Shown: one piece after another, positions 28,177-63,537 of the stretch | How the letters are laid out: each line of letters opens with the position of its first letter | How positions within the stretch are numbered: position 1 is the first letter of the stretch | Source of the DNA: Tubulanus polymorphus | Lineage: Eukaryota; Nemertea; Palaeonemertea; Tubulaniformes; Tubulanidae | NCBI RefSeq assembly: GCF_964204645.1 | Contig: NC_134028.1 | Coordinates: forward strand, 8,163,001 to 8,227,000 | Reading direction: 5' to 3' | DNA: 64,000 nt | Program-made: the position numbers and the translations under genes | Notes under the pieces: generated by a model | What the model saw: the letters and a program-made list of their open reading frames with translations, nothing else | Told to the model about the DNA's origin: nothing | Databases searched by the model: none

Positions 28177-28730
28177 ATTGCGCGCTCTGGAATTTGAATT
28201 CGAAAAAAGTGTGGCGACACGCTTTCCTGCCCTGTTGAACCAGTTGTATACATGTAATTAGTAAATGTGATTGTTATTTTTGTAAATAAATGCTTATCTT
28301 AGATGAAAATAGCTTCCTTGAAATTTTTATTCTGTGAAAATAATGCTTTATTAGAGACTGATGTGCGATCCCACCAAGTACATAATGTAATTTTATTGGG
28401 GTGGGAGTTCAGATGTTTACTTTTTCCTAAATCAGAGCAAACTCTGTGCAGTCTCCAGGGTCCATACCCTGAATTTCTTTTACCCGGTTTATTGACCTGT
28501 ACAACGCGCGCCGGTTAATAATTAGTCCGTGACCGTATTATAGTGTCCTGCCTTAATCCGTGATTTAGTTTATACCCCTCTCGACCAATCATAATCGAGT
28601 AAACAGTGGTGACCCGGAAGTAAGTTGTCTTGTGATTTTCATCCGGAATTTGGTCATAAGTGCGTTGTAATTAGTCACTGGAACGGCGATAACCGAGCAG
28701 TAACAGTGTCAGTGAGACGTTTCTGACGAT
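28177..28730. promoter_or_regulatory. NCAPG2 3' end and PSAP1 promoter/5' UTR
   Basis: This 554-bp spacer lies between two plus-strand genes. It holds the NCAPG2 poly(A) signal (28285-28290), a CCAAT word at 28585-28589, and a 5' UTR tail that resembles the one before PSAP2: AGTGAGACG and GATATG just before each start codon, at 28710-28731 and 42188-42209. I see no TATA box. The shared leader supports PSAP1 and PSAP2 being duplicates that include their promoters. Confidence 0.45.
28285..28290 (+). terminator. AATAAA poly(A) signal of NCAPG2
   Basis: The canonical hexamer lies 109 bp after the NCAPG2 stop codon, in an AT-rich stretch. Confidence 0.7.
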
Positions 28731-30555: not shown

Positions 30556-30637
<82 letters not shown>

Positions 30638-39600: not shown

Positions 39601-40206
39601 TATATCGGAAATATGGATCAGATATATCCATTCATTATAACCAATAGGCTGACGAAACTAACAAATCGAACTTTCTCATTTCGGTCGAAATGTATGATTT
39701 CTTACAGCCAATGAATTGTCTATTGAAAATAGTCCACGGGAACATTTTGAAATTTGTCAGTTATAACCATGGTTTCTCATTGTTACTATTTTTGGTGGTT
39801 GTTACCCCGATTTAGGAGTTGCCCCTAGGGATAACTTCGATACCAGTCTATAAATCCGGCACCTGGTGTTTTGTGGGGTTTTACTGTATAAGTGATTAAA
39901 GGATGGTGGATACATCATACATATTTTACCAGTTAACGTAACACCAAAGTTCACGTGAATTTAAAACCCACTATATACAGAATTTGAGAGATTATAAACG
40001 AATCTGACACCTGATGATGATCTCTAGTGAAAGTTCGAAATGTTGTGTATTTTGATCTTTTAAATTCAGTATATAGTGAGTTTTAAACTTATTATCTTTT
40101 CTCCGAGTGTTGCTATTCTACTGAAGTACAGGTTATTCGAATGTTTCTTTTCGTATATTTTCAGGCTATGGAACATTGTCAGACTCACGTTTGGACTCGA
40201 GATTAA
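28731..40206 (+). CDS. PSAP: Prosaposin-like protein 1 (SapA, six SapB, SapA), 16 exons, complete
   Basis: A secreted/lysosomal saposin precursor whose SapB units bind and present lipids to hydrolases. Exons: 28731-28773, 29212-29357, 29721-29798, 30075-30140, 30881-31057, 32544-32624, 32686-32748, 33772-33834, 34102-34161, 34944-35435, 36154-36438, 36528-36696, 37790-37944, 38674-38757, 39239-39364, 40165-40206. They give 709 codons. A signal peptide (MMKILIIFAVLTASG) is followed by SapA (CTWGPSYWC...C..AVNHC), SapB1 (exons 3-5), SapB2 (exons 7-10), SapB3 (wholly inside exon 10), SapB4 (10-11), SapB5 (11-12), SapB6 (13-15) and a C-terminal SapA (CTYGPAYWC). Each SapB has six Cys and usually an N-A-T glycosylation site after helix 1. 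Exon 6 is an extra helix-1 half-domain (QCTICKAIL...NNATE), so it may be alternative to exon 7. Human prosaposin has four SapB domains. Confidence 0.93.
30398..30695. mobile_element. MITE, family A, expanded by a (GGCT)n tract
   Basis: The left end reads TAGAATAAAATGATATTTTG and the right end GGGAAACAATGTATAAATTT. The central GGC-rich spot seen in other copies has grown here to about 20 GGCT units (30556-30637). It lies in PSAP1 intron 4. Confidence 0.7.
32977..33187. mobile_element. MITE, family A, clearest copy
   Basis: The ends GGCTAGAATAAAATGATACC and GAGAAACAATGTATCAATTT (then TTTTAGCC) are near-perfect inverses. The centre contains GGCGGCCGGCCGGCCGG, the apparent seed of the GGCT expansion at 30556. 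It lies in PSAP1 intron 7. Confidence 0.75.
34767..34880. mobile_element. Short inverted-repeat element shared with PSAP2
   Basis: It starts GGATCCACTTCCACAGTTGT and ends in the approximate inverse, CCACTGTGGAGCCAGG. Related elements occupy the same intron (before exon 10) in each PSAP2 unit, for example 49347-49462. The insertion therefore predates the PSAP1/PSAP2 split. A further relative sits after exon 12 in both genes (36970 and 61746-61855). Confidence 0.6.
36730..36932. mobile_element. MITE, family A
   Basis: It begins GGCTAGAAAAAATTGATACG and ends GGAGAAACAAGGTATCG then TTTAGCC. It lies in PSAP1 intron 12 and is absent from the matching PSAP2 intron, so it inserted after the gene duplication. 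Confidence 0.65.
37134..37426. mobile_element. GC-rich MITE with repeated GTCGCAA words
   Basis: The ends TAAGCCGGGCATAGGTC and GACCTACACCCGGCTTTA are inverted repeats. The roughly 290-bp interior is much richer in G+C than its surroundings and is packed with TGCGAC/GTCGCA words on both strands. It is in PSAP1 intron 12 and absent from the same place in PSAP2. Confidence 0.65.
38897..39175. mobile_element. piggyBac-type MITE copy 2 (TTAA-flanked)
   Basis: A 279-bp element with ends TTAACCCTTTCAGTGCGG and CACTGAAAGGGTTAA, better preserved than the copy at 9160. It lies in PSAP1 intron 14. The matching PSAP2 intron, as far as it is visible, lacks it. Confidence 0.75.
39473..39588. mobile_element. 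MITE, family C copy 3
   Basis: The left end GGGGCTCAAAAGTTGG and right end GTTTAGAGCACAGGCCCC are inverse and related to the elements at 24853 and 27456. It is in PSAP1 intron 15. Confidence 0.5.
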
Positions 40207-42121: not shown

Positions 42122-42208
42122 AACGTGCCATATTTGATTCAGCTTTGAAACCGAACTTCACATCAGGACTGGGTGAACAGTGTCAGTCAGTGAGACGCTT
42201 CTGGCGAT

Positions 42209-45200
42209 ATGGTGAAGATTCTTATTATATTTGCCGTACTGGCGGCGTCCGGTAAGTGTTGTATCGTCGTCAGATAACGATTTTTTCGACTTGATTTGAT
42301 AATCAAATTTTTAAAAACAAAACAAGGCCAAATTTTGCATTTTTTTCTGAAAAAATTGACAACTTTTTTCATATATATGGCCCTCTAGCTGCTGGTCCTG
42401 GGCCAGTGCCTCGGGCTCAGTTGACAATTATATTTGTTCCCATACTCCTTCCGGTTGCTATAGCCTAGGCTTAAGCGACTACAGTAGTCCTTTATTGCTG
42501 GCCCAGTTTCACGAAAAAGTTTAAGCCTAAATGGCTAAGTTTGAATCGTTGTCCTATTTGAATACATCTACATGAAGAAATCAATGGCAATTACACCAAA
42601 AATTTGAGTTAAACTTTTTTGTGAAACAAAAAGGTTTAAGGCCTTAAATCGATCTAATTTCTTCATTAGTTCAATTCATCTTAAATCGATTTAATCCTTT
42701 CTGTGAAACTGGGCCCCAGGTAGAGAAAAAAATGTAGGTATAAAGCCAAGTGAAGTTCTTTTTATATATTTGAGCAACGTTTCAGCTTGAGCCACCGGCG
42801 TATTTTGTTCTCGAGAACCTCTTTACATCATTCTGAATTACCGTGGGATTTTTGTAATATGGCACTAAGCTATGGTGGCTGATAAGGGCCATAGCAAAAA
42901 ATTTCTGGTATGCAATTCAGGGCGCCAGAACGCCAAAACTATGGTGGCTGATAAGGGCCATAGCGTAAAATTCCTGGTATGTAAATGAGGGCGCCAGAAC
43001 GCCAGAACGCCAAAACGAAAAAAAACGTCCAATTTTCTCTGAAAGTTCGTTTTGGCGCGCCAAAACAAAGAAAATTCCGTTTTGGCGCCCCCGCCAAAAC
43101 GAACTTTCATTTTGGCGCCCCCGCCAAAACGAACTTTCGTTTTGGCGCCCCCGCCAAAACAACGAAAAACGTCGAAATTTCTCTAAAAGTTCGTTTTGGC
43201 GCGCCAAAACGGAGAATATTCCGTTTTGGCGCCCCCGCCAAAACGAACTTTCATTTTGGCGCCCCCGCCAAAACGAACTTTCGTTTTGGCGCCCCCGCCA
43301 AAACAACGAAAAACGTCGAAATTTCTCTGAAAGTTCGTTTTGGCGCGCCAAAACAAAGAAAAGTTCGTTTTGGCGCGGTTATTTTCGTTTTGGCGCCCCC
43401 GCCAAAACAAGCATTCAACCACAGTAAAATTATTTTTCAAATTGGCGCGTTGATCTTGTGTGTAATTTGCATAAATTTGCATAAATGAAAATATTTTACG
43501 TATATATAGAATTATTTTACGTGGTTTAAAGTTCGTATTGGCGGGGGCGCCAAAACGAAAGTTCGTTTTGGCGGGGGCGCCAAAACGGAATATTCGTTGT
43601 TTTGGCGCGCCAAAACGAACTTTCAGAGAAAATTGGACGTTTTTCGTTGTTTTGGCGGGGGCGCCAAAACCAAAGTTCGTTTTGGCGGGGGCGCCAAAAT
43701 GAAAGTTCGTTTTGGCGGGGGCGCCAAAACGGAATTTTTTTCCGTTTTGGCGCGCCAAAACGAACTTTCAGAGAAATTTCGACGTTTTTCGTTGTTTTGG
43801 CGGGGGCGCCAAAACCAAAGTTCGTTTTGGCGGGGGCGCCAAAATGAAAGTTCGTTTTGGCGGGGGCGCCAAAACGGAATTTTTTTCCGTTTTGGCGCGC
43901 CAAAACGAACTTTCAGAGAAATTTCGACGTTTTTCGTTGTTTTGGCGGGGGCGCCAAAACCAAAGTTCGTTTTGGCGGGGGCGCCAAAATGAAAGTTCGT
44001 TTTGGCGGGGGCGCCAAAACGGAATTTTCTTTGTTTTGGCGCGCCAAAACGAACTTTTAGAGAAAATTGGACGTTTTTCGTTGTTTTGGCGGGGGCGCCA
44101 AAATGAAAGTTCGTTTTGGCGGGGGCGCCAAAACGGAATATTCTCCGTTTTGGCGCGCCAAAACGAACTTTTAGAGAAAATTGGACGTTTTTTTTCGTTT
44201 TGGCGTTCTGGCGTTCTGGCGCCCTCATTTACATACCAGGAATTTTACGCTATGGCCCTTATCAGCCACCATACAAAACAAAAAAAAGTCCAATTTTCTC
44301 TGAAAGTTCGTTATGGCGCGCCAAAACAAAGAGAATTCCGTTTTGGCGCCCCACCCAAAACGAACTTTCATTTTCGCGCCCCCGCCAAAACAACGAAAAA
44401 CGTCCAATTTTCTCTGAAAGTTTGTTTTGGCGCGCCAAAACAAAGATTATTTCGTTTTGGCGCGGTTATTTCCGTTTTGGCGCCCCCACCAAAACAAGCA
44501 TTCAACCACAGTAAAATTATTTTTCAATTTGGCGCGTTGATCCTGTGTGTAATTTGCATAAATTTGCATTTATAGAATTATTTTTCGTGGTTGAAAGTTC
44601 GTTTTGGCGGGGGCGCCAAAACGGAATATTCTTTGATTTGGCGCGCCAAAACGAACTTTTAGAGAAATTTCGACGTTTTTCGTTGTTTTGGCGGGGGCGC
44701 CAAAACGGAATTTTCTTTGTTTTGGGATCTGATGTGAAAAATCTATTTCCAGCGAGTGCATCACCATTACTGGGTACCGATCGATGTACGTGGGGACCGT
44801 CGTTCTGGTGCAGTCACATCAGCCATGCTTCTGAATGTCGCGCCGTAAATCACTGTATCGACACTGTTTGGAGTAAACAAAAACTCCCCACTGAACCGGT
44901 ACGGTCTATCTATTCGAAAAATAGGTCTATTAGGGCCAAATTCAATATTCGCAATGTTTCATTTCGTTAAATACGTATGAAAACATTTGGATACCTTAAA
45001 AATGATGACTCCACTGTGGTCAAACCTCGGTACGTTATCTGCCTCCATCGCATATCCATAAGCCTTGATTATTCGTCAAAAAGTCATCAAAGTCCAAATA
45101 ATGACAGATTGGATAGGACTAATCGAGATCAATAAAATTCTGGATTAGGCCTATAAACTAAAATCGGCGCATTAAGACGGTTTTATGCAAGTTCATTTCT

Positions 45201-48200
45201 TATTCATAAATATTTTTTTCTACACGCAATTTCTAGAAAAATGGGGAAATTTGTACATTATGCGAAGGCGTCATTGCGCAAGTCAAACAAATGTTGCTTG
45301 ATCCAAATGCTAATGTAAGTAATGTAATTAGGTATATGTAGCTCATACCGCCTACAGATTTATTCTTTCTTTTGAAAAAAACTTCTGGGGTATTGTTTGT
45401 ATTTGTTGGGAATAAAGAACCCTGGGGATGTAATTGTGCAGAAAAATGATACACGTATATTTCAATTTCCGGAAAAATAAGCCAAGACTGAATAAGGCCC
45501 CAGTTAGATATAGCCTGCCTGGGATGGCAGTGGCCTAAGGATTTTACCAAAAATCCATACAGTTTGAATATTGATGAATTCGTAATTATGTTTTTATTCA
45601 GGCTCAAGTGAAATCCTTCCTGGATAAAAGCTGTACTCTTTTGCCTGAAGTTGAGTCGCAAAGACAGGTTTGTATTAGGCTGAGTTTTACTGGACACGCA
45701 GATACGACCCATGATCGTAAAACTATCTGCTCTGTGGCCTGGATCGTGTGAAATGAAATGATTGCTAAAGAAATTTAGTGAAATTGCTTCAAATGAATAG
45801 GGAGTTAAAAGTAAATTTCAACGTAAGAAGCTTGTTTAGGAAAATGTCAATACGAGTTTTGGGAAGGTTGAAATGCTGTATTGAAAATAAAAACAGGATT
45901 CACATAATGTTCAAATAATTCTTTCCAGGGTTGAAAAATAAACTGAATAGGCTAGAATAAAATGATATCTTGTTTCTCCGAATCGACCGGGTTATTTTGT
46001 AAACTGCAATGAAATTTTTAACCAGTTCGTTTCTAAAACATCCGGGTCTGTTATGATTAGCTTGATCATGATTTTGAAAAAAGTAATGCACAGGGCCGGG
46101 TAGATAGGTGTTCTACTATTATTAGATATTAGAGGGAAGTTTCCAGTTATCAGGCGCCATTTTGAGGCGGACCCACAGATCCCGCATTGTTGGACAGATT
46201 TTAACATTTTTAAACTATAGCACCTTTAGCGCGATTCAATGTAGTCCATCCCACTTTTGCCTCAAAAATCAAAGTCATGCATCGTTAGAAAGGTGACAAT
46301 TTCTATTTTCTGATGTCAATGTAGAATTTTGACAGAAAATCGACAGTCGACCACTCGCGCGCGCTTTGCGCTTAACTTAACAGGTGACCACGCGCGTTTC
46401 TATGAAGATATTTTTACGTATATTTTTAAACTGTAATGGTATCCGATTGTTGCAGCCGATAAAAATGAAATAAACACCATCAGAAAATAGAGATTGTCAC
46501 CTTTCTAACAATGCATGACTTTAATTTTTTTGCCAAGAGGGGTATAGACTACAATTAATCGCGCTTAAGGTTTTAATGTAAAAAATGTTAAAATCTGTCC
46601 AACAATACGGGACCTGTGGGACCGCCTCAAAATGGCGCCTGGTAAGTGAAAACTTCCCTATCCTGGTAAAGAAATTTAGCTAAGTTATAGTAGTTTGGGG
46701 ATGGTTGAGATGTTAAGATTAAGATTGATTTGACTGTTTTGTCGATTGAATATTTTCAGTGTACGCAAATAGTGAACACGTACAACAATGAAGTGATTCA
46801 GATGATCAAAAGTAAATTGTTACCGTGTCAAATCTGCGCCGCCCTGAAATTGTGCCCGGTAGCAGCTGCTGATGGAAAAACGACACCGAACCGTGAGAGC
46901 AGTCTGAAGTTCACACCTCTGAAAGCGCCCAGTGCTCGGGTATGTCAATTATGAGAAATAGTGTTACTAAGGTTTCATTTATAAGAATTAGCAATCTTTG
47001 CGGACAAGGTTTCCCAGTAAGTCATTGATCCTTGGTAAAATAGTACTCGGGAAATCTCGGTTTTCGAAAACAGGTATGATGGGTTTCTAATGGCACCAAG
47101 AATTATTGATTACAAAAAAATATTTGTTTGAAAATTTTTTTGTTCATACTTTATTAAATAGATTTTATTTCGATGTAATTTTGTTTTCGAGCTAGGGTAC
47201 GATAGCTCTGAGATCTAGGATCTAAGATAGCTCTAAGATCTAGATCGAACCTAGGACTAACCACTTAAATTTAATAAACAGGTGCATTAGCATCATTGTA
47301 TAAAAAGGCTCATTCCCTCGTACTACGTACTTGCTGTTGATTCACGCGAGAAATTCTGAGAGTTTCAAATACAGAATTCGTAGAATATGTAGAATTATAG
47401 AGAGTACGGTATGTAATACGTTCAATCGAAACCTGCCTCAGTCGTATTATTTCGAATATATTTGTTTTCTAATGTGATGACTTTCATCTCTTATTCTGAC
47501 CACTCTTGTCGACCTAGTCATATTTTCTACCACTCTGATTTTTATCTTTCGCACATCAATCCACTCTCCAATGTCAATTTTTTTTTTCCAATAATTATTA
47601 TACCTCATCCAACTCTTCTCTCACTCACTTGACCAGCACTCAACCTCTCGTCTCTCCTTGTCCACTTATTTTGCAACCTCATATAATTACCTACCTTTAT
47701 CCTTTCATTCTCACCCTCTACATTTTCTACCGTTTTCCTCAATACCCCTTGTTTAGGTCAGCCGTCTGTAAAGCCATTCTGAACGTGGCTATAGATTTCG
47801 TCAGCGACAATGCGACCAAGGTAAACAATTCAAAAACTTCCTTCATGTTGTAAATATTAAATGTTTATTATATTTTCAGTGCGACCTGTGCAAAGTTGCA
47901 TTTCAAGTGGCTAAAGTTATGTTCGATGATAAGAAGTCTCAGGTAGACCCGATATCTATGTGCTTGGCATGACTTGTTTCAAAATCGGCTTAAATATTTA
48001 TCTTCTATCGCATTTCTATCGTCTTTTTAACATTTGGCTTTGTGTTTATTTTTAACTAACTTTACTGAACTTCTAATTTGAATTCCTGCATATATCAATA
48101 AATCTTGCACGTAAATCATCTTCTAGGATATTGGTTGTTTGTTTGTTTGTTTGTTTATTCATCATTCATTTAATTTGAAAACTCATTTATGGATTTTATT

Positions 48201-49686
48201 TTTCTTCACTTGCCACTGGTGGAATCCTCAATTGCTGCATTGCCACGTCTTCATTGCGAGATATGTTTTCTATGTCAATTACATATTTCAACAAAATTTA
48301 ACTGACTTTGAAAAAAGATTCTAATACAGCTTGAAAAACTTATTTGCTATATATCTAATACTGTGTTCATTTATTTGAAATAAGGCGGAAATCACTGCTT
48401 TCCTCAAAAAGGAATTGTGCGCAAAACTGGGACCTGAGCAACAAGCGGTAAGTTAAGTGTAGGAATATGATGATGTTTTGTACCCTAAAATTGTTTACGA
48501 TGAGGACTCTTCAGAAGAAAGCATTTTTGCCATTTTCAAACAAAGCCAGTACTTACCAATGCGTGTACATACATCTGCATAGGTCAAAGATCTGCAACTT
48601 ATAAAATAGATTGAAATCGATAACAACTATGGGCTGGAATTTACTCAGTACCGGCATAATCAATTTATTTTCATATTTTTCAGTGCAATTCATTGGTTGA
48701 TAAGAACGGCAATCTGATAATGCAACTTCTCGCCAACAATGTGGTGAGTATTTCGTAATGACTTTAATTCTTTCAGCATCAACTCTTATGGGCGACAATG
48801 GCCGCAGCGTTACCAATATCGGGGTGCACATTTTTCACATATTTCAAACTTAAATATTGGCTTTACCGTAAGGAGATATACTGATATGGCCTGGAATTGG
48901 TTAAGAACTCTTTTCTAAGTTTGATACCAATATTTGTATTGCATTGCTAACGTATGTTTATCCACAAATGATTCCACGAGTGTTTTGTTCAATCACCGAG
49001 CTAGTTTTGGACCGCAAAGTAGAAAATAATGCCATGAAAAATGGCAAGTTTCCAAATTCGATCGGCGTGTTTACGTTTGAGCGGTTCCGCATGATGTTTC
49101 GGAACGTCAATTCAACCAATATGAGTCAATTAAATCAAGAACATATACGATAATGTTTGGTTTTGAAAAAAATGCGAGAATGGCTTGGTAACAACAGATC
49201 ACTCATCTTATGATCATGCAAGATAGACATCGATAGAGTTGATGAAGACCGATCCTCAACGACTGATGGCCATATTGCAAAATACTTTTCTATCTATTTC
49301 AGCATCAGTTTTCAGCACTTTTCAGATAAACCTTTTAATGCATAGGATCCAGTTTCGCAGTTCCGAGTTAAGATTCGAATCAGGAGTTAACTCATCGATA
49401 ATGAACTTATTCTAACTCAGAGTTATAACTCTAACTCACAGCTGCTATGGACTTGGATCCAGGTTCAGGAATTTAAACTCGTAATATGATCTCATGGTTT
49501 TGCTAATTTGACAATTCGACGTTTATTTCAGGATCCGGAACAGATTTGCAAAGCGATCGGTTTTTGCCCCTTCGCGTCGCAGACGGTCATGTCGCAACGA
49601 TCTGCTCAGTGCGTCACCTGCGAATTCGTGACCAAAACCCTCATCGGCATGTTGACGAAAAATGCGTCTGAGGTAATGATAATTAT

Positions 49687-49731
<45 letters not shown>

Positions 49732-52700
49732 CTTCGGGGTTTGGATATTGGATATTGTATTTGATAGATTGAAATTATATGTGTATAGTTCGGATAAGAG
49801 CCCAGGCATTCATAATGAGAATGGCGTTGACTTTATTTATTACCTGAACAACCTACTTGGTTTTTACTCCCTTACGATCTGAGGTCCGTTTCTCACAAAG
49901 TCGTTAAGTTTGCCCCCGAGTTGCGCAGTGCTGACCACAAATGCCGTAGTTTTGGATCCTTGAGGAAGGTCATACATCTGATTTCTGCGTAGTCTGCGTA
50001 ACTGGACCGGGATTTTACCAAATTACGCGGTTACCGAATTAGAAATCGAGCTTAGGAGGTATATACGATAACAAGGTGCTTATAAAAACCACCAAGTTAA
50101 TGGTTTACTTAGATATACAGAGGCGATTTAGAGTCTAAAGTAATTAGGCCTATACGATACATTAGTGATTAGTCATACGGACGCTTCCCGGAAATTGAAA
50201 TTTTCTCCTTTAAAACTCCATATCCAGGAATGACTGATCTGCGGGGACCCTGCATATGAACTTGCTAACTAATCACAGTTAAGTCTAGATTTGATGTTTG
50301 TTTTTTCAGCAACAAATTGTACGCGCTTTGGGTAGCGTGTGTACGTTAATGCCGAAGACAGTGAGAGCTAAGTGTCAATCGTACGTCACCACGTACGCCC
50401 CCGCTCTGATTCAGCTGCTCGCATCGGACAACGACCCGCAACAGATTTGCACGTTCCTCGGAGTTTGCAGCCCGGCGGTGAAAAAACATCAACCGACTAG
50501 GCAACAAACACCCGTGGCTCAGCCGACATGCAACGTTTGCGAACAGGTCATGAAAGAACTCGAAAGCCTTCTACCGACAAATGCAACCGAGGTAAGATGA
50601 AATCTGACCTTTTTTTTAGAAACTTTCGAAATTCAATCGATTTGAATCGGATTTTCTATGGGACTCCATTGAAATCCGTCTTTCAATCTTCATTGAAATC
50701 CACCACGTTATCATATTTATGTGTGTATATACCACTCCAATGTATGTTTATCAACGAAAATTTGCATATAACAACATTCAGCTCTACCCCTTTCTTCAGT
50801 GGGCACTTGATTTTCCAAAAATCCATACAGTTTGAATATTGATGAATTCGTAATTATGTTTTTATTCAGGCTCAAGTGAAATCCTTCCTGGATAAAAGCT
50901 GTACTCTTTTGCCTGAAGTTGAGTCGCAAAGACAGGTTTGTATTAGGCTGAGTTTTACTGGACACGCAGATACGACCCATGATCGTAAAACTATCTGCTC
51001 TGTGGCCTGGATCGTGTGAAATGAAATGATTGCTAAAGAAATTTAGTGAAATTGCTTCAAATGAATAGGGAGTTAAAAGTAAATTTCAACGTAAGAAGCT
51101 TGTTGAGGAAAATGTCAATACGAGTTTTGGGAAAGTTGAAATGCTGTATTGAAAATAAAAACAGGATTCACATAATGTTCAAATAATTCTTTCCAGGGTT
51201 GAAAAATAAACTGAATAGGCTAGAATAAAATGATATCTTGTTTCTCCGAATCGACCGGGTTATTTTGTAAACTGCAATGAAATTTTTAACCAGTTCGTTT
51301 CTAAAACATCCGGGTCTGTTATGATTAGCTTGATCATGATTTTGAAAAAAGTAATGCACAGGGCCGGGTAGATAGGTGTTCTACTATTATTAGATATTAG
51401 AGGGAAGTTTCCAGTTATCAGGCGCCATTTTGAGGCGGACCCACAGATCCCGCATTGTTGGACAGATTTTAACATTTTTAAACTATAGCACCTTTAGCGC
51501 GATTCAATGTAGTCCATCCCACTTTTGCCTCAAAAATCAAAGTCATGCATCGTTAGAAAGGTGACAATTTCTATTTTCTGATGTCAATGTAGAATTTTGA
51601 CAGAAAATCGACAGTCGACCACTCGCGCGCGCTTTGCGCTTAACTTAACAGGTGACCACGCGCGTTTCTATGAAGATATTTTTACGTATATTTTTAAACT
51701 GTAATGGTATCCGATTGTTGCAGCCGATAAAAATGAAATAAACACCATCAGAAAATAGAGATTGTCACCTTTCTAACGATGCATGACTTTAATTTTTTTG
51801 CCAAGAGGGGTATAGACTACAATTAATCGCGCTTAAGGTTTTAATGTAAAAAATGTTAAAATCTGTCCAACAATACGGGACCTGTGGGACCGCCTCAAAA
51901 TGGCGCCTGGTAAGTGAAAACTTCCCTATCCTGGTAAAGAAATTTAGCTAAGTTATAGTAGTTTGGGGATGGTTGAGATGTTAAGATTAAGATTGATTTG
52001 ACTGTTTTGTCGATTGAATATTTTCAGTGTACGCAAATAGTGAACACGTACAACAATGAAGTGATTCAGATGATCAAAAGTAAATTGTTACCGCGTCAAA
52101 TCTGCACCGCCCTGAAATTGTGCCCGGTAGCAGCTGCTGATGGAAAAACGACACCGAACCGTGAGAGCAGTCTGAAGTTCACACCTCTGAAAGCGCCCAG
52201 TGCTCGGGTACGTCAATTATGAGAAATAGTGTTACTAAGGTTTCATTTATAAGAATTAGCAATCTTTGCGGACAAGGTTTCCCAGTAAATCATTGATCCT
52301 TGGTAAAATAGTACTCGGGAAATCTCGGTTTTCGAAAACAGGTATGATGGGTTTCTAAAGGCACCAAGAATTATTGATTACAAAAAAATATTTGTTTGAA
52401 AATTTTTTTGTTCATACTTTATTAAATAGATTTTATTTCGATGTAATTTTGTTTTCGAGCTAGGGTACGATAGCTCTGAGATCTAGGATCTAAGATAGCT
52501 CTAAGATCTAGATCGAACCTAGGACTAACCACTTAAATTTAATAAACAGGTGCATTAGCATCATTGTATAAAGGCTCATTCCCTCGTACTACGTACTTGC
52601 TGTTGATTCACGCGAGAAATTCTGAGAGTTTCTAATACAGAATTCGTAGAATATGTAGAATTATAGAGAGTACGGTATGTAATACGTTCAATCGAAACCT

Positions 52701-54950
52701 GCCTCAGTCGTATTATTTCGAATATATTTGTTTTCTAATGTGATGACTTTCATCTCTTATTCTGACCACTTGTCGACCTAGTCATATTTTCTACCACTCT
52801 GATTTTTATCTTTCGCACATCAATCCACTCTCCAATGTCAATTTTTTTTTTCCAATAATTATTATACCTCATCCAACTCTTCTCTCACTCACTTGACCAG
52901 CACTCAACCTCTCGTCTCTCCTTGTCCACTTATTTTGCAACCTCATATAATTACCTACCTTTATCCTTTCATTCTCACCCTCTACATTTTCTACCGTTTT
53001 CCTCAATACCCCTTGTTTAGGTCAGCCGTCTGTAAAGCCATTCTGAACGTGGCTATAGATTTCGTCAGCGACAATGCGACCAAGGTAAACAATTCAAAAA
53101 CTTCCTTCATGTTGTAAATATTAAATGTTTATTATATTTTCAGTGCGACCTGTGCAAAGTTGCATTTCAAGTGGCTAAAGTTATGTTCGATGATAAGAAG
53201 TCTCAGGTAGACCCGATATCTATGTGCTTGGCATGACTTGTTTCAAAATCGGCTTAAATATTTATCTTCTATCGCATTTCTATCGTCTTTTTAACATTTG
53301 GCTTTGTGTTTATTTTTTACTAACTTTACTGAACTTCTAATTTGAATTCCTGCATATATCAATAAATCTTGCACGTAAATCATCTTCTAGGATATTGGTT
53401 GTTTGTTTGTTTGTTTGTTTATTCATCATTCATTTAATTTGAAAACTCATTTATGGATTTTATTTTTCTTCACTTGCCACTGGTGGAATCCTCAATTGCT
53501 GCATTGCCACGTCTTCATTGCGAGATATGTTTTCTATGTCAATTACATATTTCAACAAAATTTAACTGACTTTGAAAAAAGATTCTAATACAGCTTGAAA
53601 AACTTATTTGCTATATATCTAATACTGTGTTCATTTATTTGAAATAAGGCGGAAATCACTGCTTTCCTCAAAAAGGAATTGTGCGCAAAACTGGGACCTG
53701 AGCAACAAGCGGTAAGTTAAGTGTAGGAATATGATGATGTTTTGTACCCTAAAATTGTTTACGATGAGGACTCTTCAGAAGAAAGCATTTTTGCCATTTT
53801 CAAACAAAGCCAGTACTTACCAATGCGTGTACATACATCTGCATAGGTCAAAGATCTGCAACTTATAAAATAGATTGAAATCGATAACAACTATGGGCTG
53901 GAATTTACTCAGTACCGGCATAATCAATTTATTTTCATATTTTTCAGTGCAATTCATTGGTTGATAAGAACGGCAATCTGATAATGCAACTTCTCGCCAA
54001 CAATGTGGTGAGTATTTCGTAATGACTTTAATTCTTTCAGCGTCAACTCTTATGGGCGACAATGGCCGCAGCGTTACCAATATCGGGGTGCACATTTTTC
54101 ACATATTTCAAACTTAAATATTGGCTTTACCGTAAGGAGATATACTGATATGGCCTGGAATTGGTTAAGAACTCTTTTCTAAGTTTGATACCAATATTTG
54201 TATTGCATTGCTAACGTATGTTTATCCACAAATGATTCCACGAGTGTTTTGTTCAATCACCGAGCTAGTTTTGGACCGCAAAGTAGAAAATAATGCCATG
54301 AAAAATGGCAAGTTTCCAAATTCGATCGGCGTGTTTACGTTTGAGCGGTTCCGCATGATGTTTCGGAACGTCAATTCAACCAATATGAGTCAATTAAATC
54401 AAGAACATATACGATAATGTTTGGTTTTGAAAAAAATGCGAGAATGGCTTGGTAACAACAGATCACTCATCTTATGATCATGCAAGATAGACATCGATAG
54501 AGTTGATGAAGACCGATCCTCAACGACTGATGGCCATATTGCAAAATACTTTTCTATCTATTTCAGCATCAGTTTTCAGCACTTTTCAGATAAACCTTTT
54601 AATGCATAGGATCCAGTTTCGCAGTTCCGAGTTAAGATTCGAATCAGGAGTTAACTCATCGATAATGAACTTATTCTAACTCAGAGTTATAACTCTAACT
54701 CACAGCTGCTATGGACTTGGATCCAGGTTCAGGAATTTAAACTCGTAATATGATCTCATGGTTTTGCTAATTTGACAATTCGACGTTTATTTCAGGATCC
54801 GGAACAGATTTGCAAAGCGATCGGTTTTTGCCCCTTCGCGTCGCAGACGGTCATGTCGCAACGATCTGCTCAGTGCGTCACCTGCGAATTCGTGACCAAA
54901 ACCCTCATCGGCATGTTGACGAAAAATGCGTCTGAGGTAATGATAATTAT

Positions 54951-54983
<33 letters not shown>

Positions 54984-57900
54984 CTTCGGGGTTTGGATAT
55001 TGGATATTGTATTTGATAGATTGAAATTATATGTGTATAGTTCGGATAAGAGCCCAGGCATTCATAATGAGAATGGCGTTGACTTTATTTATTACCTGAA
55101 CAACCTACTTGGTTTTTACTCCCTTACGATCTGAGGTCCGTTTCTCACAAAGTCGTTAAGTTTGCCCCCGAGTTGCGCAGTGCTGACCACAAATGCCGTA
55201 GTTTTGGATCCTTGAGGAAGGTCATACATCTGATTTCTGCGTAGTCTGCGTAACTGGACCGGGATTTTACCAAATTACGCGGTTACCGAATTAGAAATCG
55301 AGCTTAGGAGGTATATACGATAACAAGGTGCTTATAAAAACCACCAAGTTAATGGTTTACTTAGATATACAGAGGCGATTTAGAGTCTAAAGTAATTAGG
55401 CCTATACGATACATTAGTGATTAGTCATACGGACGCTTCCCGGAAATTGAAATTTTCTCCTTTAAAACTCCATATCCAGGAATGACTGATCTGCGGGGAC
55501 CCTGCATATGAACTTGCTAACTAATCACAGTTAAGTCTAGATTTGATGTTTGTTTTTTCAGCAACAAATTGTACGCGCTTTAGGTAGCGTGTGTACGTTA
55601 ATGCCGAAGACAGTGAGAGCTGAGTGTCAATCGTACGTCACCACGTACGCCCCCGCTCTGATTCAGCTGCTCGCATCGGACAACGACCCGCAACAGATTT
55701 GCACGTTCCTCGGAGTTTGCAGCCCGGCGGTGAAAAAACATCAACCGACTAGGCAACAAACACCCGTGGCTCAGCCGACATGCAACGTTTGCGAACAGGT
55801 CATGAAAGAACTCGAAAGCCTTCTACCGACAAATGCAACCGAGGTAAGATGAAATCTGACCTTTTTTTTAGAAACTTTCGAAATTCAATCGATTTGAATC
55901 GGATTTTCTATGGGACTCCATTGAAATCCGTCTTTCAATCTTCATTGAAATCCACCACGTTATCATATTTATGTGTGTATATACCACTCCAATGTATGTT
56001 TATCAACGAAAATTTGCATATAACAACATTCAGCTCTACCCCTTTCTTCAGTAGGCACTTGATTTTCCAAAAATCCATACAGTTTGAATATTGATGAATT
56101 CGTAATTATGTTTTTATTCAGGCTCAAGTGAAATCCTTCCTGGATAAAAGCTGTACTCTTTTGCCTGAAGTTGAGTCGCAAAGACAGGTTTGTATTAGGC
56201 TGAGTTTTACTGGACACGCAGATACGACCCATGATCGTAAAACTATCTGCTCTGTGGCCTGGATCGTGTGAAATGAAATGATTGCTAAAGAAATTTAGTG
56301 AAATTGCTTCAAATGAATAGGGAGTTAAAAGTAAATTTCAACGTAAGAAGCTTGTTGAGGAAAATGTCAATACGAGTTTTGGGAAGGTTGAAATGCTGTA
56401 TTGAAAATAAAAACAGGATTCACATAATGTTCAAATAATTCTTTCCAGGGTTGAAAAATAAACTGAATAGGCTAGAATAAAATGATATCTTGTTTCTCCG
56501 AATCGACCGGGTTATTTTGTAAACTGCAATGAAATTTTTAACCAGTTCGTTTCTAAAACATCCGGGTCTGTTATGATTAGCTTGATCATGATTTTGAAAA
56601 AAGTAATGCACAGGGCCGGGTAGATAGGTGTTCTACTATTATTAGATATTAGAGGGAAGTTTCCAGTTATCAGGCGCCATTTTGAGGCGGACCCACAGAT
56701 CCCGCATTGTTGGACAGATTTTAACATTTTTAAACTATAGCACCTTTAGCGCGATTCAATGTAGTCCATCCCACTTTTGCCTCAAAAATCAAAGTCATGC
56801 ATCGTTAGAAAGGTGACAATTTCTATTTTCTGATGTCAATGTAGAATTTTGACAGAAAATCGACAGTCGACCACTCGCGCGCGCTTTGCGCTTAACTTAA
56901 CAGGTGACCACGCGCGTTTCTATGAAGATATTTTTACGTATATTTTTAAACTGTAATGGTATCCGATTGTTGCAGCCGATAAAAATGAAATAAACACCAT
57001 CAGAAAATAGAGATTGTCACCTTTCTAACGATGCATGACTTTAATTTTTTTGCCAAGAGGGGTATAGACTACAATTAATCGCGCTTAAGGTTTTAATGTA
57101 AAAAATGTTAAAATCTGTCCAACAATACGGGACCTGTGGGACCGCCTCAAAATGGCGCCTGGTAAGTGAAAACTTCCCTATCCTGGTAAAGAAATTTAGC
57201 TAAGTTATAGTAGTTTGGGGATGGTTGAGATGTTAAGATTAAGATTGATTTGACTGTTTTGTCGATTGAATATTTTCAGTGTACGCAAATAGTGAACACG
57301 TACAACAATGAAGTGATTCAGATGATCAAAAGTAAATTGTTACCGCGTCAAATCTGCGCCGCCCTGAAATTGTGCCCGGTAGCAGCTGCTGATGGAAAAA
57401 CGACACCGAACCGTGAGAGCAGTCTGAAGTTCACACCTCTGAAAGCGCCCAGTGCTCGGGTATGTCAATTATGAGAAATAGTGTTACTAAGGTTTCATTT
57501 ATAAGAATTAGCAATCTTTGCGGACAAGGTTTCCCAGTAAATCATTGATCCTTGGTAAAATAGTACTCGGGAAATCTCGGTTTTCGAAAACAGGTATGAT
57601 GGGTTTCTAAAGGCACCAAGAATTATTGATTACAAAAAAATATTTGTTTGAAAATTTTTTTGTTCATACTTTATTAAATAGATTTTATTTCGATGTAATT
57701 TTGTTTTCGAGCTAGGGTACGATAGCTCTGAGATCTAGGATCTAAGATAGCTCTAAGATCTAGATCGAACCTAGGACTAACCACTTAAATTTAATAAACA
57801 GGTGCATTAGCATCATTGTATAAAGGCTCATTCCCTCGTACTACGTACTTGCTGTTGATTCACGCGAGAAATTCTGAGAGTTTCTAATACGGAATTCGTA

Positions 57901-60200
57901 GAATATGTAGAATTATAGAGAGTACGGTATGTAATACGTTCAATCGAAACCTGCCTCAGTCGTATTATTTCGAATATATTTGTTTTCTAATGTGATGACT
58001 TTCATCTCTTATTCTGACCACTTGTCGACCTAGTCATATTTTCTACCACTCTGATTTTTATCTTTCGCACATCAATCCACTCTCCAATGTCAATTTTTTT
58101 TTCCAATAATTATTATACCTCATCCAACTCTTCTCTCACTCACTTGACCAGCACTCAACCTCTCGTCTCTCCTTGTCCACTTAATTTGCAACCTCATATA
58201 ATTACCTACCTTTATCCTTTCATTCTCACCCTCTACATTTTCTACCGTTTTCCTCAATACCCCTTGTTTAGGTCAGCCGTCTGTAAAGCCATTCTGAACG
58301 TGGCTATAGATTTCGTCAGCGACAATGCGACCAAGGTAAACAATTCAAAAACTTCCTTCATGTTGTAAATATTAAATGTTTATTATATTTTCAGTGCGAC
58401 CTGTGCAAATTTGCATTTCAAGTGGCTAAAGTTATGTTCGATAATAAGAAGTCTCAGGTAGACCCGATATCTATGTGCTTGGCATGACTTGTTTCAAAAT
58501 CGGCTTAAATATTTATCTTTTATCGCATTTCTATCGTCTTTTTAACATTTGGCTTTGTGTTTATTTTTTACTAACTTTACTGAACTTCTAATTTGAATTC
58601 CTGCATATATCAATAAATCTTGCACGTAAATCATCGTCTAGGATATTGGTTGTTTGTTTGTTTGTTTGTTTATTCATCATTCATTTAATTTGAAAACTCA
58701 TTTATGGATTTTATTTTTCTTCACTTGCCACTGGTGGAATCCTCAATTGCTGCATTGCCACGTCTTCATTGCGAGATATGTTTTCTATGTCAATTACATA
58801 TTTCAACAAAATTTAACTGACTTTGAAAAAAGATTCTAATACAGCTTGAAAAACTTGTTTGCTATATATCTAATACTGTGTTCATTTATTTGAAATAAGG
58901 CGGAAATCACTGCTTTCCTAAAAAAGGAATTGTGCGCAAAACTGGGACCTGAGCAACAAGCGGTAAGTTAAGTGTAGGAATATGATGATGTTTTGTACCC
59001 TAAAATTGTTTACGATGAGGACTCTTCAGAAGAAAGCATTTTTGCCATTTTCAAACAAAGCCAGTACTTACCAATGCGTGTACATACATCTGCATAGGTC
59101 AAAGATCTGCAACTTATAAAATAGATTGAAATCGATAACAACTATGGGCTGGAATTTACTCAGTACCGGCATAATCAATTTATTTTCATATTTTTCAGTG
59201 CAATTCATTGGTTGATAAGAACGGCAATCTGATAATGCAACTTCTCGCCAATAATGTGGTGAGTATTTCGTAATGACTTTAATTCTTTCAGCATCAACTC
59301 TTATGGGCGACAATGGCCGCAGCGTTACCAATATCGGGGTGCACATTTTTCACATATTTCAAACTTAAATATTGGCTTTACCGTAAGGAGATATACTGAT
59401 ATGGCCTGGAATTGGTTAAGAACTCTTTTCTAAGTTTGATACCAATATTTGTATTGCATTGCTAACGTATGTTTATCCACAAATGATTCCACGAGTGTTT
59501 TGTTCAATCACCGAGCTAGTTTTGGACCGCAAAGTAGAAAATAATGCCATGAAAAATGGCAAGTTTCCAAATTCGATCGGCGTGTTTACGTTTGAGCGGT
59601 TCCGCATGATGTTTCGGAACGTCAATTCAACCAATATGAGTCAATTAAATCAAGAACATATACGATAATGTTTGGTTTTGAAAAAAATGCGAGAATGGCT
59701 TGGTAACAACAGATCACTCATCTTATGATCATGCAAGATAGACATCGATAGAGTTGATGAAGACCGATCCTCAACGACTGATGGCCATATTGCAAAATCT
59801 ATCTATTTCAGCATCAGTTTTCAGCACTTTTCAGATAAACCTTTTAATGCATAGGATCCAGTTTCGCAGTTCCGAGTTAAGATTCGAATCAGGAGTTAAC
59901 TCATCGATAATGAACTTATTCTAACTCAGAGTTATAACTCTAACTCACAGCTGCTATGGACTTGGATCCAGGTTCAGGAATTTAAACTCGTAATATGATC
60001 TCATGGTTTTGCTAATTTGACAATTCGACGTTTATTTCAGGATCCGGAACAGATTTGCAAAGCGATCGGTTTTTGCCCCTTCGCGACGAAACCGTCGCAG
60101 ACGGTCATGTCGCAACGATCTGCTCAGTGCGTCACCTGCGAATTCGTGACCAAAACCCTCATCGGCATGTTGACGAAAAATGCGTCTGAGGTAATGATAA

Positions 60201-60257
<57 letters not shown>

Positions 60258-63200
60258 CTTCGGGGTTTGGATATTGGATATTGTATTTGATAGATTGAAA
60301 TTATATGTGTATAGTTCGGATAAGAGCCCAGGCATTCATAATGAGAATGGCGTTGACTTTATTTATTACCTGAACAACCTACTTGGTTTTTACTCCCTTA
60401 CGATCTGAGGTCCGTTTCTCACAAAGTCGTTAAGTTTGCCCCCGAGTTGCGCAGTGCTGACCACAAATGCCGTAGTTTTGGATCCTTGAGGAAGGTCATA
60501 CATCTGATTTCTGCGTAGTCTGCGTAACTGGACCGGGATTTTACCAAATTACGCGGTTACCGAATTAGAAATCGAGCTTAGGAGGTATATACGATAACAA
60601 GGTGCTTATAAAAACCACCAAGTTAATGGTTTACTTAGATATACAGAGGCGATTTAGAGTCTATAGTAATTAGGCCTATACGATACATTAGTGATTAGTC
60701 ATACAGACGCTTCCCGGAAATTGAAATTTTCTCCTTTAAAACTCCATATCCAGGAATGACTGATCTGCGGGGACCCTGCATATGAACATGCTAACTAATC
60801 ACAGTTAAGTCTAGATTTGATGTTTGTTTTTTCAGCAACAAATTGTACGCGCTTTAGGTAGCGTGTGTACGTTAATGCCGAAGACAGTGAGAGCTGAGTG
60901 TCAATCGTACGTCACCACGTACGCCCCCGCTCTGATTCAGCTGCTCGCATCGGACAACGAGCCGCAACAGATTTGCACGTTCCTCGGAGTTTGCAGCCCG
61001 GCGGTGAAAAAACATCAACCGACTAGGCAACAAACACCCGTGGCTCAGCCGACATGCAACGTTTGCGAACAGGTCATGAAAGAACTCGAAAGCCTTCTAC
61101 CGACAAATGCAACCGAGGTAAGATGAAATCTGACCTATTTTTTAGAAACTTTCGAAATTCAATCGATTTGAATCGGATTTTCTATGGGACTCCATTGAAA
61201 TCCGTCTTTCAATCTTCATTGAAATCCACCACGTTATCATATTTATGTGTGTATATACCACTCCAATGTATGTTTATCAACGAAAATTTGCATATAACAA
61301 CATTCAGCTCTACCCCTTTCTTCAGTGGGCACTTGATTTTGGCGTCGGCTGAAAATTTCCATCATTAAAACCTCTGACGAATCTTCCATCATGTTCGTTA
61401 AATATCTGGTCAACTGGTCAACTATGTTAGGCGGTTGGGACAAAGAAGCTTTAATTCTGATCATATATATGATTGTATATCTGATTATATATTCATTTTC
61501 AGACAGATATCGTTGCAGCGTTTAACAGAGTTTGCGCTCTGCAACCAATGACTATTAGCGCTGAATGTACAGATTTTGTAAATCAGTACGGGACGTTAGT
61601 TATCCAACTATTGGTCGATGGTTTTGCTCCGGTAGTTGTTTGCAAAGAACTAGGCCTCTGCCCTACTGTTCGTAAGTATTCGATAGAAATTCCATGTTCA
61701 GTTATCATTGTGGAGTATAGAGTTTTGGTGAATTCCTAAACTCGCGGACCGGGTTCTACAGTTGTGAGTTTAAGATTTGACTAGAGAGTTACTTCGTTGT
61801 AAATCTACTAATTTTAACTCTGAGTAAACCCGAACTCACAACTGTGAAACTGACCTTCCAGTACGACTGTCACGACATTAGTCCACAAAATCAAATCTCA
61901 ACATTGGTTTAAGGTTATAAAATTTGCTATCGAACTAAGTTTGTTGTAGACTGGTCTTAAACGTAAGCCATGGCTGCACAGATGGCCACTCAGGTCGGCA
62001 CTTATATCCCTGGCTAGATTATTATCATCATTGGGAACCGAGGTTACTGTTGATTACTGATTAAAATGAACATTTCAACGAAATGTTGCCGAAAAGTTTC
62101 AATTTGTTACTAATAGCACTTTTAGAGGTTGGCAGCCGTTACCATTTATAGCCGCTATTGCTTTGATATGAAGCGATGACAGGCAAAATTTCAATATTTC
62201 AAGCGATAGATATTTATCGATGTTTTTATACCGTATGCGTGTACCGGTAATTGTTTCGTTACAGAGACCAAAGTCCGAGCGAGTGGTGAGGTTTGTCGGT
62301 TGTGCAAAATGGTTATGTCGTATTTGGCTATGCTCTTGAGGGAACAGTCGACCGCGCAAACAATCGACCACGCAGTCGAACGAGTTTGCAACTTCTTACC
62401 AGCTGCGATGAAAAAACCTGTACGTATATTGAATTCTATTTGTGAGATCAATACAACCAACATCGATCACTGGAAATACTTTGACCTAATGTTGTAGCAG
62501 TACCAAACTATATAGTCGGTTTAAATTCAAGATTAGTTAATTTTCGATCAACTTTAAACTGGATTTTTACAGGCTCTTGAATCCATATTTCCAAAATAGT
62601 ACTGGTAATCAGATGAATACACAATTGATTTTTGTACTCGGCGTTTGGTATAGTTTTCATTGGTAATTGGAAGTAGATTTTAATTGGTTACCGTTCGAAG
62701 AAATTGAAGCGTAGTAACAGAGTAACTACTACTAGCGAACCTAGCTGGAAATCTAGCTGAAGTGCTCCAGTCAGGCATTCTGAAGTGTTGGGCATATTCA
62801 CCACACAAGTAGGCCTACATATTTGTTAGACAAATAGCTGCAAAGTTGGAAACAAATAGCAAAGAGTCTCTACAACTCCTTGTTTCATATTCGGTTCAGG
62901 ATCCCTACGACTCATTGATCCCTTTAAAGCTCCTTCTCAATGAAAAGCGGTGTTTGAAACTACATTAATGCCAGAAGCTCCTTCAATTTTGAAAGATAGG
63001 AAATCAGAAGTTGTGGCACAGTAAAAAGACTACGCCTAAATCGATGCAGTCAGGATTTTTTACCAATTCGGTGGTTACCAAATTTGAAAGGATCAGAATT
63101 TGCCACCGAATTTACCGTTTTGCCGAGGTAGACAGTACAGATTTATGAGGAGTCTACTGTATTTGAGATATGAAAGTCATGCAGAAGCTTCATCAAAATT

Positions 63201-63537
63201 TGAAATTTTCTCCTTTAACAATTTCTTGAAAACTCCTTGTATCCAGGAATGGCTGATTTGTTGGGTCACCCTGTAGTCACCTTACTTATCCCCAAGATGA
63301 TCAAAGCTATCGACCATCACCTCTGATATTAATAGGGAAGGGTGACTGACTGTGGCGCAGTAACTTAGCAATCAATAACTGTCCCTGAATTCTTCACTGC
63401 ACTTGTTGAGAGGAAAACCTACGGAATTGTTTATTCCATGTAATATTTTTCAGTGTGATGATATGATAGAACAATACGGACCGTTTATCATTCAAAAGTT
63501 GGACCAGCAGCTCGTAAACCCTGCCGATGTTTGTGCC
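42209..63537 (+). CDS. PSAP-like: Prosaposin-like protein 2 with internally triplicated exons 4-11 (3' end beyond window)
   Basis: Paralogue of PSAP1 in the same orientation. Exons 1-3: 42209-42251, 44753-44898, 45237-45314. Unit 1 exons 4, 5, 7-11: 45602-45667, 46760-46939, 47880-47942, 48385-48447, 48684-48743, 49532-49672, 50310-50591. Unit 2: 50870-50935, 52028-52207, 53144-53206, 53649-53711, 53948-54007, 54796-54936, 55562-55843. Unit 3: 56122-56187, 57280-57459, 58395-58457, 58900-58962, 59199-59258, 60041-60190, 60836-61117. Then exons 12-14: 61503-61671, 62265-62419, 63454-63537. Skipping the broken exon 6, the phases join through 1083 codons: signal peptide (MVKILIIFAVLAAS), SapA and 11 SapB domains. 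The expected exons 15-16 (end of the last SapB and C-terminal SapA) lie past the window. Exon 10 lacks the extra SapB domain present in PSAP1. An assembly artefact must be excluded, but small differences between the units argue for real copies. Confidence 0.85.
42500..42716. repeat. Nested inverted-repeat element (GGCCCAGTTTCAC ends)
   Basis: It starts GGCCCAGTTTCACGAAAAAG and ends CTTTCTGTGAAACTGGGCC. An internal inverted copy (AACTTTTTTGTGAAAC, then AAAAAGGTTTAAGG) near 42615-42645 suggests two elements side by side. It is related to 7438-7546 and sits in PSAP2 intron 1. Confidence 0.6.
42871..44273. mobile_element. Foldback element built of TTTTGGCG palindromes
   Basis: The outer inverted repeats exceed 100 bp: TATGGTGGCTGATAAGGGCC at 42940 (a first direct copy lies at 42871) is inverted as GGCCCTTATCAGCCACCATA ending at 44273. 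Inside, a block in one orientation (about 43020-43410) faces a block in the other (about 43540-44200). Both blocks are made of a module in which the palindrome TTTTGGCGCGCCAAAA alternates with two or three TTTTGGCGGGGGCGCCAAAA near-palindromes. The long open frames on both strands here come from the repeat lacking stops and are not genes. It sits in PSAP2 intron 1. Confidence 0.8.
44274..44726. repeat. Extra partial copy of the TTTTGGCG foldback array
   Basis: The same modules continue right of the element's inverted end, again in one orientation (about 44290-44490) and then the other (about 44590-44726). They are separated by an AT-rich spacer (GTAATTTGCATAAATTTGCA) that also occurs at about 43450. 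The array stops 26 bp before PSAP2 exon 2 (44753). Confidence 0.75.
46133..46659. mobile_element. Foldback/MITE in unit 1 with long inverted repeats
   Basis: A 527-bp element with inverted arms of about 190 bp: AGGGAAGTTTCCAGTTATCA at the left, and TAAGTGAAAACTTCCCT at the right. The arms meet at internal words GACAATTTCTATTTTCTGAT and ATCAGAAAATAGAGATTGTC. Identical-position copies lie at 51401-51927 and 56653-57179. PSAP1 intron 4 lacks it, so it inserted after the PSAP1/PSAP2 split and before the units multiplied. Confidence 0.75.
47757..47820 (+). pseudogene. Broken exon 6, unit 1
   Basis: This corresponds to PSAP1 exon 6 (32544-32624, 81 nt) but is only 64 nt long. The loss near its start removes one of the two helix-1 cysteines and shifts the frame. 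Read in phase 0 it meets TAA at its fifth codon. Acceptor (GTTTAG) and donor (GTAAAC) remain, so inclusion would truncate the protein. Skipping it keeps the frame. Confidence 0.8.
49688..49732. repeat. (GATT)n microsatellite next to the exon 10 donor, unit 1
   Basis: About 11 GATT units start 16 bp after exon 10. The matching tract has about 8 units at 54952-54983 and about 13 at 60206-60258. It is the most variable site among the three units. Confidence 0.85.
51401..51927. mobile_element. Foldback/MITE in unit 2
   Basis: Same element, same place and same 527-bp length as 46133-46659. It was copied with the unit rather than inserted independently. Confidence 0.75.
53021..53084 (+). pseudogene. 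Broken exon 6, unit 2
   Basis: A 64-nt copy with the same deletion and in-frame TAA as the unit 1 relic at 47757-47820. The damage therefore predates the unit duplication. Confidence 0.8.
56653..57179. mobile_element. Foldback/MITE in unit 3
   Basis: Third copy of the 527-bp element at the same intronic position as in units 1 and 2. Confidence 0.75.
58272..58335 (+). pseudogene. Broken exon 6, unit 3
   Basis: Identical in length and defect to the relics in units 1 and 2. The intron to exon 7 is 59 bp in all three units. Confidence 0.8.

Follow-up and report, generated by a model that had tools for sequence, protein, structure and literature searches.

How does a gene come to carry three nearly identical copies of a run of eight exons, and can it still encode a complete protein? 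The question is raised by a prosaposin-like gene, here called PSAP2, in a stretch of 64,000 nucleotides from the nemertean Tubulanus polymorphus (assembly GCF_964204645.1, contig NC_134028.1, positions 8,163,001 to 8,227,000, forward strand; hereafter the window). Prosaposins are believed to have expanded through tandem duplications within the gene; since the introns of the copies in PSAP2 are still 99% alike, the mechanism, geometry and fate of such a duplication become open to direct study, the geometry on view being one of phase-0 borders that lie inside a domain and so yield chimeric domains. The account we favor, with moderate confidence, is that PSAP2 is a duplicate of the neighboring prosaposin gene PSAP1 in which the block was triplicated in two steps, and that it would encode a leader, one SapA domain and 11 SapB domains; that it is an expanded functional gene is plausible but unproven.

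Anatomy of the array

When the window is compared with itself, 45540-56066 matches 50809-61340 in direct orientation at 99.2% identity and 45540-50814 matches 56061-61340 at 99.0%; a repeat finder gives the same three copies and spacings. The array thus consists of three head-to-tail copies (A, B and C) of exons 4-11 with their introns, all within PSAP2. Measured start to start (from 45547, 50815 and 56067), the units are 5268, 5252 and 5274 bp long; mutually aligned, they differ at 35 sites or indels, 29 of which are single substitutions. Exon positions were assigned manually, using reading frames, the similarity of PSAP1 to PSAP2 and AG/GT borders; all gene models are predictions. They place the following features:

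28731-40203, forward strand: PSAP1, intact prosaposin gene with 16 predicted exons, SapA - 6 SapB - SapA, one block (hand-made models, Pfam)
42209-42251, forward strand: PSAP2 exon 1, start codon and hydrophobic leader (89% match to PSAP1 exon 1)
44753-44898, forward strand: PSAP2 exon 2, N-terminal SapA (SapA match, hand-made model)
45237-45314, forward strand: PSAP2 exon 3, first half of SapB 1, phase-0 end (hand-made model)
45541-45552, forward strand: outer left border of the array, GATTTTACC (border comparison)
45547-50814, forward strand: block copy A (repeat finder, self-comparison, hand-made model)
Copy A exons, forward strand: E4 45602-45667, E5 46760-46939, broken E6 47757-47820, E7 47880-47942, E8 48385-48447, E9 48684-48743, E10 49532-49672, E11 50310-50591
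50815-56066, forward strand: block copy B, a hybrid, C-like on the left and A-like on the right (hand-made model, site analysis)
Copy B exons, forward strand: E4 50870-50935, E5 52028-52207, broken E6 53021-53084, E7 53144-53206, E8 53649-53711, E9 53948-54007, E10 54796-54936, E11 55562-55843
56067-61340, forward strand: block copy C (hand-made model)
Copy C exons, forward strand: E4 56122-56187, E5 57280-57459, broken E6 58272-58335, E7 58395-58457, E8 58900-58962, E9 59199-59258, E10 60041-60190, E11 60836-61117
61503-61671, forward strand: PSAP2 exon 12, phase-0 start (hand-made model)
62265-62419, forward strand: PSAP2 exon 13 (hand-made model)
63454-63537, forward strand: PSAP2 exon 14 (hand-made model)
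L001:108-125, just past the window end, forward strand: PSAP2 last exon with stop, named E16 after PSAP1 (match to PSAP1)

All eight exons have AG/GT borders in each copy, and the splice borders are nearly identical across copies, with one donor change (gtatgt to gtacgt, E5 of copy B). Provided that exon 6 is skipped, the borders E3/E4, E11/E4 and E11/E12 are all in phase 0; as exon 3 ends, exon 4 starts, exon 11 ends and exon 12 starts in this phase, the frame is kept with any number of blocks. PSAP2 thus holds an intragenic exon-block array: direct tandem multi-exon copies, with introns, in one gene, with borders of a single phase. When a 4-kb piece of the unit is searched against the 268-Mb assembly (77 contigs; 40 of 1,123 candidates scored), it has three full-length matches, all at PSAP2, the next-best being pieces of PSAP1 (72-86%) and then short dispersed repeats. 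The triplication in the assembled DNA is in all likelihood real, the remainder of the probability falling to an artefact.

The copies can be told apart by a GATT microsatellite in intron 10, which counts about 11, 8 and 14 repeats in A, B and C, respectively (49688-49731, 54952-54983 and 60203-60257).

An earlier note on this DNA had proposed three near-identical direct copies of 5268, 5252 and 5274 bp, next to a PSAP1 with the same exon order and one copy of the block; the lengths, the near-identity (99%) and the phase-0 borders are confirmed, and the single block is seen in the hand-made PSAP1 model. Its description of exons 4-11 as having intact splice sites holds for the AG/GT borders of all copies, but not for the frame of exon 6, which is broken in all three; and its placing of exons 12-14 at the end of an order common to both genes overlooks two further 3' exons of PSAP1, one of which PSAP2 lacks.

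The predicted product

Spliced in silico, with E6 omitted and E14 joined to E16, PSAP2 gives 1,088 residues with no inner stop. Pfam assigns 11 SapB_1, 11 SapB_2 and one SapA to this model, and 6, 6 and 2 to the PSAP1 model (with E7); the six-cysteine pattern is present in 11 of 11 SapB domains of the former and in 6 of 6 of the latter. Both models begin with a hydrophobic stretch, and in both the N-terminal SapA lies at residues 23-55. With a single block, PSAP2 would have five SapB domains; PSAP1 has six because its exon 10 (492 nt, against 141 or 150 nt in PSAP2) contains one additional whole saposin. The rise from about five SapB domains to at least 11 proposed earlier is thus borne out when PSAP2 is compared with its own one-block form, but not with PSAP1. 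Pfam also assigns eight unrelated families to the PSAP2 model, of which BART-binding and huntingtin HEAT lie above the whole-protein cut-off; no stretch passes alone, and they are taken as summed noise from a repetitive protein.

Both ends of the block fall in phase 0 within a saposin, so that every added copy contributes two whole saposins and one chimeric saposin at the junction, its first part from exon 11 and the remainder from exons 4 and 5. For the A-B chimera the SapB_1 score is 51.4 bits and the SapB_2 score 37.6, where the native first saposin of copy A reaches 33.5 and 27.2; its residues 3-77, out of 77, align with the solved structures of saposins A and C (E about 2e-11 for the chimera). 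The chimera carries an N-glycosylation sequon between cysteines 2 and 3, which the native first saposin does not have. If expressed, the precursor would presumably be cleaved to single saposins, by analogy with other prosaposins.

A two-step origin

The outer left border of the array reads GATTTTA-CCAAAAATCC and the outer right border GATTTT-GGCGTCGG; both inner junctions are identical, GATTTT-CCAAAAATCC, having lost one A that is present in PSAP1. No long homology was found between the outer borders, the best match being 13 bases at 92%, on the opposite strand, with an E-value of 0.59. Long border homology is therefore rejected as the cause of the first duplication: the borders share only GATTTT, so that this step looks like end joining with a microhomology of at most six bases. 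The inner junctions, being alike, indicate that the third copy derived from an existing pair.

The origin of the third copy is recorded in copy B. Left of about 47370 (copy A coordinates), A is the odd one out at seven sites and C at none; to the right, the counts are four for A and 17 for C. The breakpoint is the best cut, and 121 of 100,000 permutations are as extreme. Such a hybrid middle copy fits the predicted outcome of unequal crossing-over between two copies, although gene conversion could also produce it. A 9-bp stretch in exon 10 of copy C, which A and B do not have, has a counterpart in PSAP1, so that A and B have a deletion in common. Between the two founding copies there would have been no more than about 20 substitutions in 5.25 kb (0.4%), compared with 14% in the introns of PSAP1 and PSAP2; if there was no homogenisation, the duplication is roughly 1/37 as old as the gene pair.

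The probable sequence of events would thus begin with PSAP2 arising as a tandem duplicate of PSAP1 and then, in an order that may have differed, losing its C-terminal SapA exon and the frame of exon 6; the exon 4-11 block would then have undergone a recent doubling, through end joining that used little homology if any, and the two blocks have become three by unequal crossing-over between the copies. Amplification by unequal exchange, as the earlier note had it, accounts for the step from two copies to three with its hybrid B, but not for the first duplication, whose borders have only GATTTT in common and at whose junction one base was lost.

Exon 6 and the 3' end

In PSAP1, exon 6 is 81 nt long, in phase 0 on both sides, and codes for a first saposin half. 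In all three copies of PSAP2 it is 64 nt long, having a 17-nt deletion relative to PSAP1 which breaks the frame and leaves AG/GT intact; as it is common to the three copies, this deletion is most likely older than the triplication. Exon 6 as an ordinary exon of the PSAP2 block is rejected: its inclusion leads to a stop after four codons. If it were still spliced in at some rate, the share of productive transcripts would fall with the third power of skipping.

The second loss concerns the C-terminal SapA exon (39239-39364 in PSAP1). No PSAP2 counterpart was found in the assembly with the SapA profile (E up to 1), and PSAP1 exon 15 as query matches only PSAP1 and the two N-terminal exons; PSAP2 is thus classed as a prosaposin paralogue without the standard end. 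According to a review, the C-terminus of mammalian prosaposin binds sortilin for transport to the lysosome (PMC12345702), so that a PSAP2 precursor lacking this SapA may be routed differently. In PSAP1, the intron before this exon shares a repeat (38897-39176) with 9160-9437, at 86%.

In the last exon of PSAP2, TAG stands in place of the CAG of PSAP1, directly after AMEHC. Joined in frame, E14-E16 reads PADVCAAMEHC followed by the stop, with the same C-x5-C spacing as the last saposin of PSAP1 (PADVCAEIRLC); through this join the last saposin of PSAP2 gains its sixth cysteine at the normal spacing. The alternative ending is a read-through after exon 14, without the sixth cysteine. With SapB_2, the E14-E16 ending scores 34.0 bits, the read-through 33.4 and PSAP1 40.3; with the Saposin model, the values are 34.4, 28.6 and 31.9, all of them above the Pfam cut-offs. 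As both endings pass, it is the C-x5-C spacing that decides the choice, and on it we prefer the E14-E16 join as the predicted end.

Selection on PSAP2

Over the aligned pieces of PSAP1 and PSAP2, introns and flanks show 797 differences in 5632 sites (14.2%) and 148 gap events, of which 111 are not a multiple of three; the exons differ at 183 of 1614 sites, with only three gaps, of 17 (exon 6), 3 and 3 nt, the difference in exon 10 being one of whole codons. The 512 aligned codons of the retained exons (taken from copy A, except for exon 10, which is from copy C) preserve 33 of 33 PSAP1 cysteines at 82% residue identity, with in-frame gaps only and no inner stop. A neutral simulation of the aligned codons (E6, E15 and E16 left out), in which the PSAP2 branch is given half of the intron divergence, yields a mean of 4.8 stops, with P = 0.007 for none, and of 6.0 lost cysteines, with P = 0.0015 for none, and 15 frameshifting indels would be expected; with a quarter of the divergence, 7.6 would be expected (none: P = 0.0005). 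The open frames, the retention of all aligned cysteines and the in-frame indels argue that PSAP2 was under selection, and presumably functional, for much of its history.

The overall dN/dS between the two genes is 0.54 (56.5 silent changes over 335 sites, 113.5 replacements over 1186 sites). It reaches 2.03, 1.15 and 1.09 in exons 7, 8 and 12, the first two with one silent change each; exon 12 (36528-36696 in PSAP1, 61503-61671 in PSAP2) has the highest replacement distance, with a dN of 0.27. For the time since the triplication, constraint is not evident in the changes between copies, whose power is small.

Weighing the explanations

Several points weigh against a PSAP2 that works as modeled. 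The 1,088-residue protein requires exon 6 to be skipped three times, and this skipping and the E14-E16 join were both chosen to keep the frame open. The simulations omit E6, E15 and E16, which did break, and thus lean towards an intact frame; when the PSAP2 branch is assigned only a quarter of the divergence, the absence of stops has a P of 0.08 and the absence of cysteine losses one of 0.04. A dN/dS of 0.54 could reflect mild constraint acting on both genes, or constraint that is strong but confined to PSAP1. Among the copies, exons (855 of 5268 bp) hold nine of the 29 substitutions, above their share (binomial P = 0.04), and replacement to silent changes stand at 3:1 (A-B), 5:3 (A-C) and 4:2 (B-C), which looks neutral given about 3.5:1 for the sites. 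Upstream of exon 2, PSAP2 matches PSAP1 only in 74 bp around exon 1 (89%; 28708-28781 and 42186-42259), so that the two promoters seem unrelated and that of PSAP2 is only putative. The amplification inside a functional gene that the earlier note envisaged is therefore retained for the intragenic phase-0 triplication to 11 SapB domains, and qualified for the function of the gene, where exon 6 is broken three times, the C-terminal SapA gone and the last exon closed by a stop.

These same features could mean that PSAP2, long functional, is now dying: the missing exon 15, the last exon's CAG to TAG change and the 17 nt deleted from exon 6 would be decay, and the triplication a neutral accident. 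The excess of exon substitutions and the neutral-looking changes between copies agree with this, as does an extra, seventh cysteine in copy A's first saposin, at a position held by arginine in B and C and by histidine in PSAP1; yet the other exons are free of stops and frameshifts in all three copies, and each loss leaves an in-frame bypass, that of E14-E16 even retaining C-x5-C in the last saposin. We consider decay somewhat unlikely; if it is under way, PSAP2 would be an example of how such arrays arise and fade without use. The opposite view, that PSAP2 works, as a gene in which the number of saposins per precursor is set by a recent array of variable copy number, in which the chimeras bring a glycosylation site, and in which the SapA was shed so that the precursor is rerouted (for example secreted) while a leftover SapA cysteine was reused to complete the last saposin, is tentative and, taken as a whole, rather unlikely; if copy number does vary, the locus would be a natural dosage series for saposins. 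It is also conceivable, though unlikely, that the array is real but that transcripts mostly skip blocks, giving about five or eight SapB domains with the extra copies as passengers: all block borders are in phase 0, so that skipping a whole block stays in frame, and a nebulin patient with four extra blocks is reported to have had only two of them in the mRNA (PMC12402328). Nothing in the sequence of PSAP2 favors such skipping, however, as the copy borders are nearly identical save for the E5 donor of B. Last, an assembler that walked a repeat loop too often would make three blocks of one or two real ones; one walk too many round a two-copy loop would likewise leave a hybrid middle copy, and the differences between copies (0.5%) are about as large as two alleles might show. 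Copy B, however, has six private substitutions (45866, 46838, 46943, 48778, 49699 and 50801 in copy A coordinates, 49699 adjoining the GATT repeat), and its GATT repeat number is likewise its own; the search of the 77 contigs gave no near-identical fragment at any other place, and an assembly error is accordingly very improbable. A prosaposin duplicate with a two-step block triplication remains the account that we favor.

Relation to known systems

The kind of array is already known. Nearest by anatomy is the triplicate region of human nebulin (NEB exons 82-105), eight exons repeated three times in 10-kb units, 99% alike and in frame, in which a change of a single block per allele, up or down, is regarded as benign (PMC9109913, PMC12402328). 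PSAP2 resembles it in having eight exons in three in-frame copies that are 99% alike; nebulin, however, is a muscle scaffold whose copy-number variation and transcripts are documented, whereas PSAP2 would encode a precursor that is cut into small proteins, has one block exon broken and is known from the assembly only. In unit size PSAP2 is close to the kringle IV type 2 (KIV-2) repeat of LPA, likewise an intragenic coding repeat, with a unit of 5.6 kb and 1-40 units per allele (PMC11462820); copy number is highly variable there, against three units in one assembly here. The segmental duplication region of titin is also an intragenic exon-block duplication, with recurrent copy-number variation, but in a muscle structural gene (PMC9142044).

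Invertebrate prosaposins have six to nine SapB domains in the few species listed in a 2010 report, which invokes internal tandem duplication and notes variants without a SapA (PMC2928233); Drosophila Sap-r has eight (PMC5319729). PSAP2 shares with them the leader, the SapA and the serial six-cysteine SapB domains, and differs in its 11 SapB domains, its three near-identical intron-containing blocks, its junction chimeras and the absence of a C-terminal SapA. No published exon-block triplication in a prosaposin gene is among the matches listed, as judged by title and start of abstract, with most subscription journals outside the search. What is new is thus a recent block array, relative to the nebulin triplicate region and LPA KIV-2, in a prosaposin duplicate with 11 SapB domains and a lost C-terminal SapA.

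The gene pair and its surroundings

In the assembly, SapB_1 (E up to 0.001) is found in three places, all in the window, and SapB_2 (E up to 1) in 28, of which 21 lie in the window and seven on contigs C1, C6, C11 and C64, the latter scoring 20.9-25.2 bits, around the cut-off of 21; SapA (E up to 1) has four places, namely the two N-terminal exons, the C-terminal exon of PSAP1 and one on C11 below the cut-off. No further prosaposin gene was found in the assembly by these searches, the seven weak SapB_2 places not having been looked into; judged by its sequence, PSAP2 is a tandem duplicate of PSAP1 and the sole other predicted prosaposin gene found there. TTAGGG repeats were also noted, which would suit an animal outside the insects.

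In PSAP1, exons 6 (32544-32624) and 7 (32686-32748) each encode the first half of a saposin, have phase 0 at either end and are separated by the shortest intron of the gene (61 nt). With either of them a complete SapB is formed, the glycosylation sequon being present only in E6; the two are candidates for mutually exclusive splicing. As a domain that contains both likewise passes Pfam, joint inclusion is also possible.

Intron 1 of PSAP2 (43008-44730) contains a GGCGCGCCAAAACG-like unit in arrays and as inverted repeats, with inverted arms of up to 296 nt at 84% and tandem periods of 30, 69, 114, 144 and 145. Elsewhere in the window, a 953-residue open frame on the minus strand (16442-19303) reads like a LINE endonuclease and reverse transcriptase, and another on the minus strand (5357-5803) resembles a DOMON or monooxygenase (MOXD) exon.

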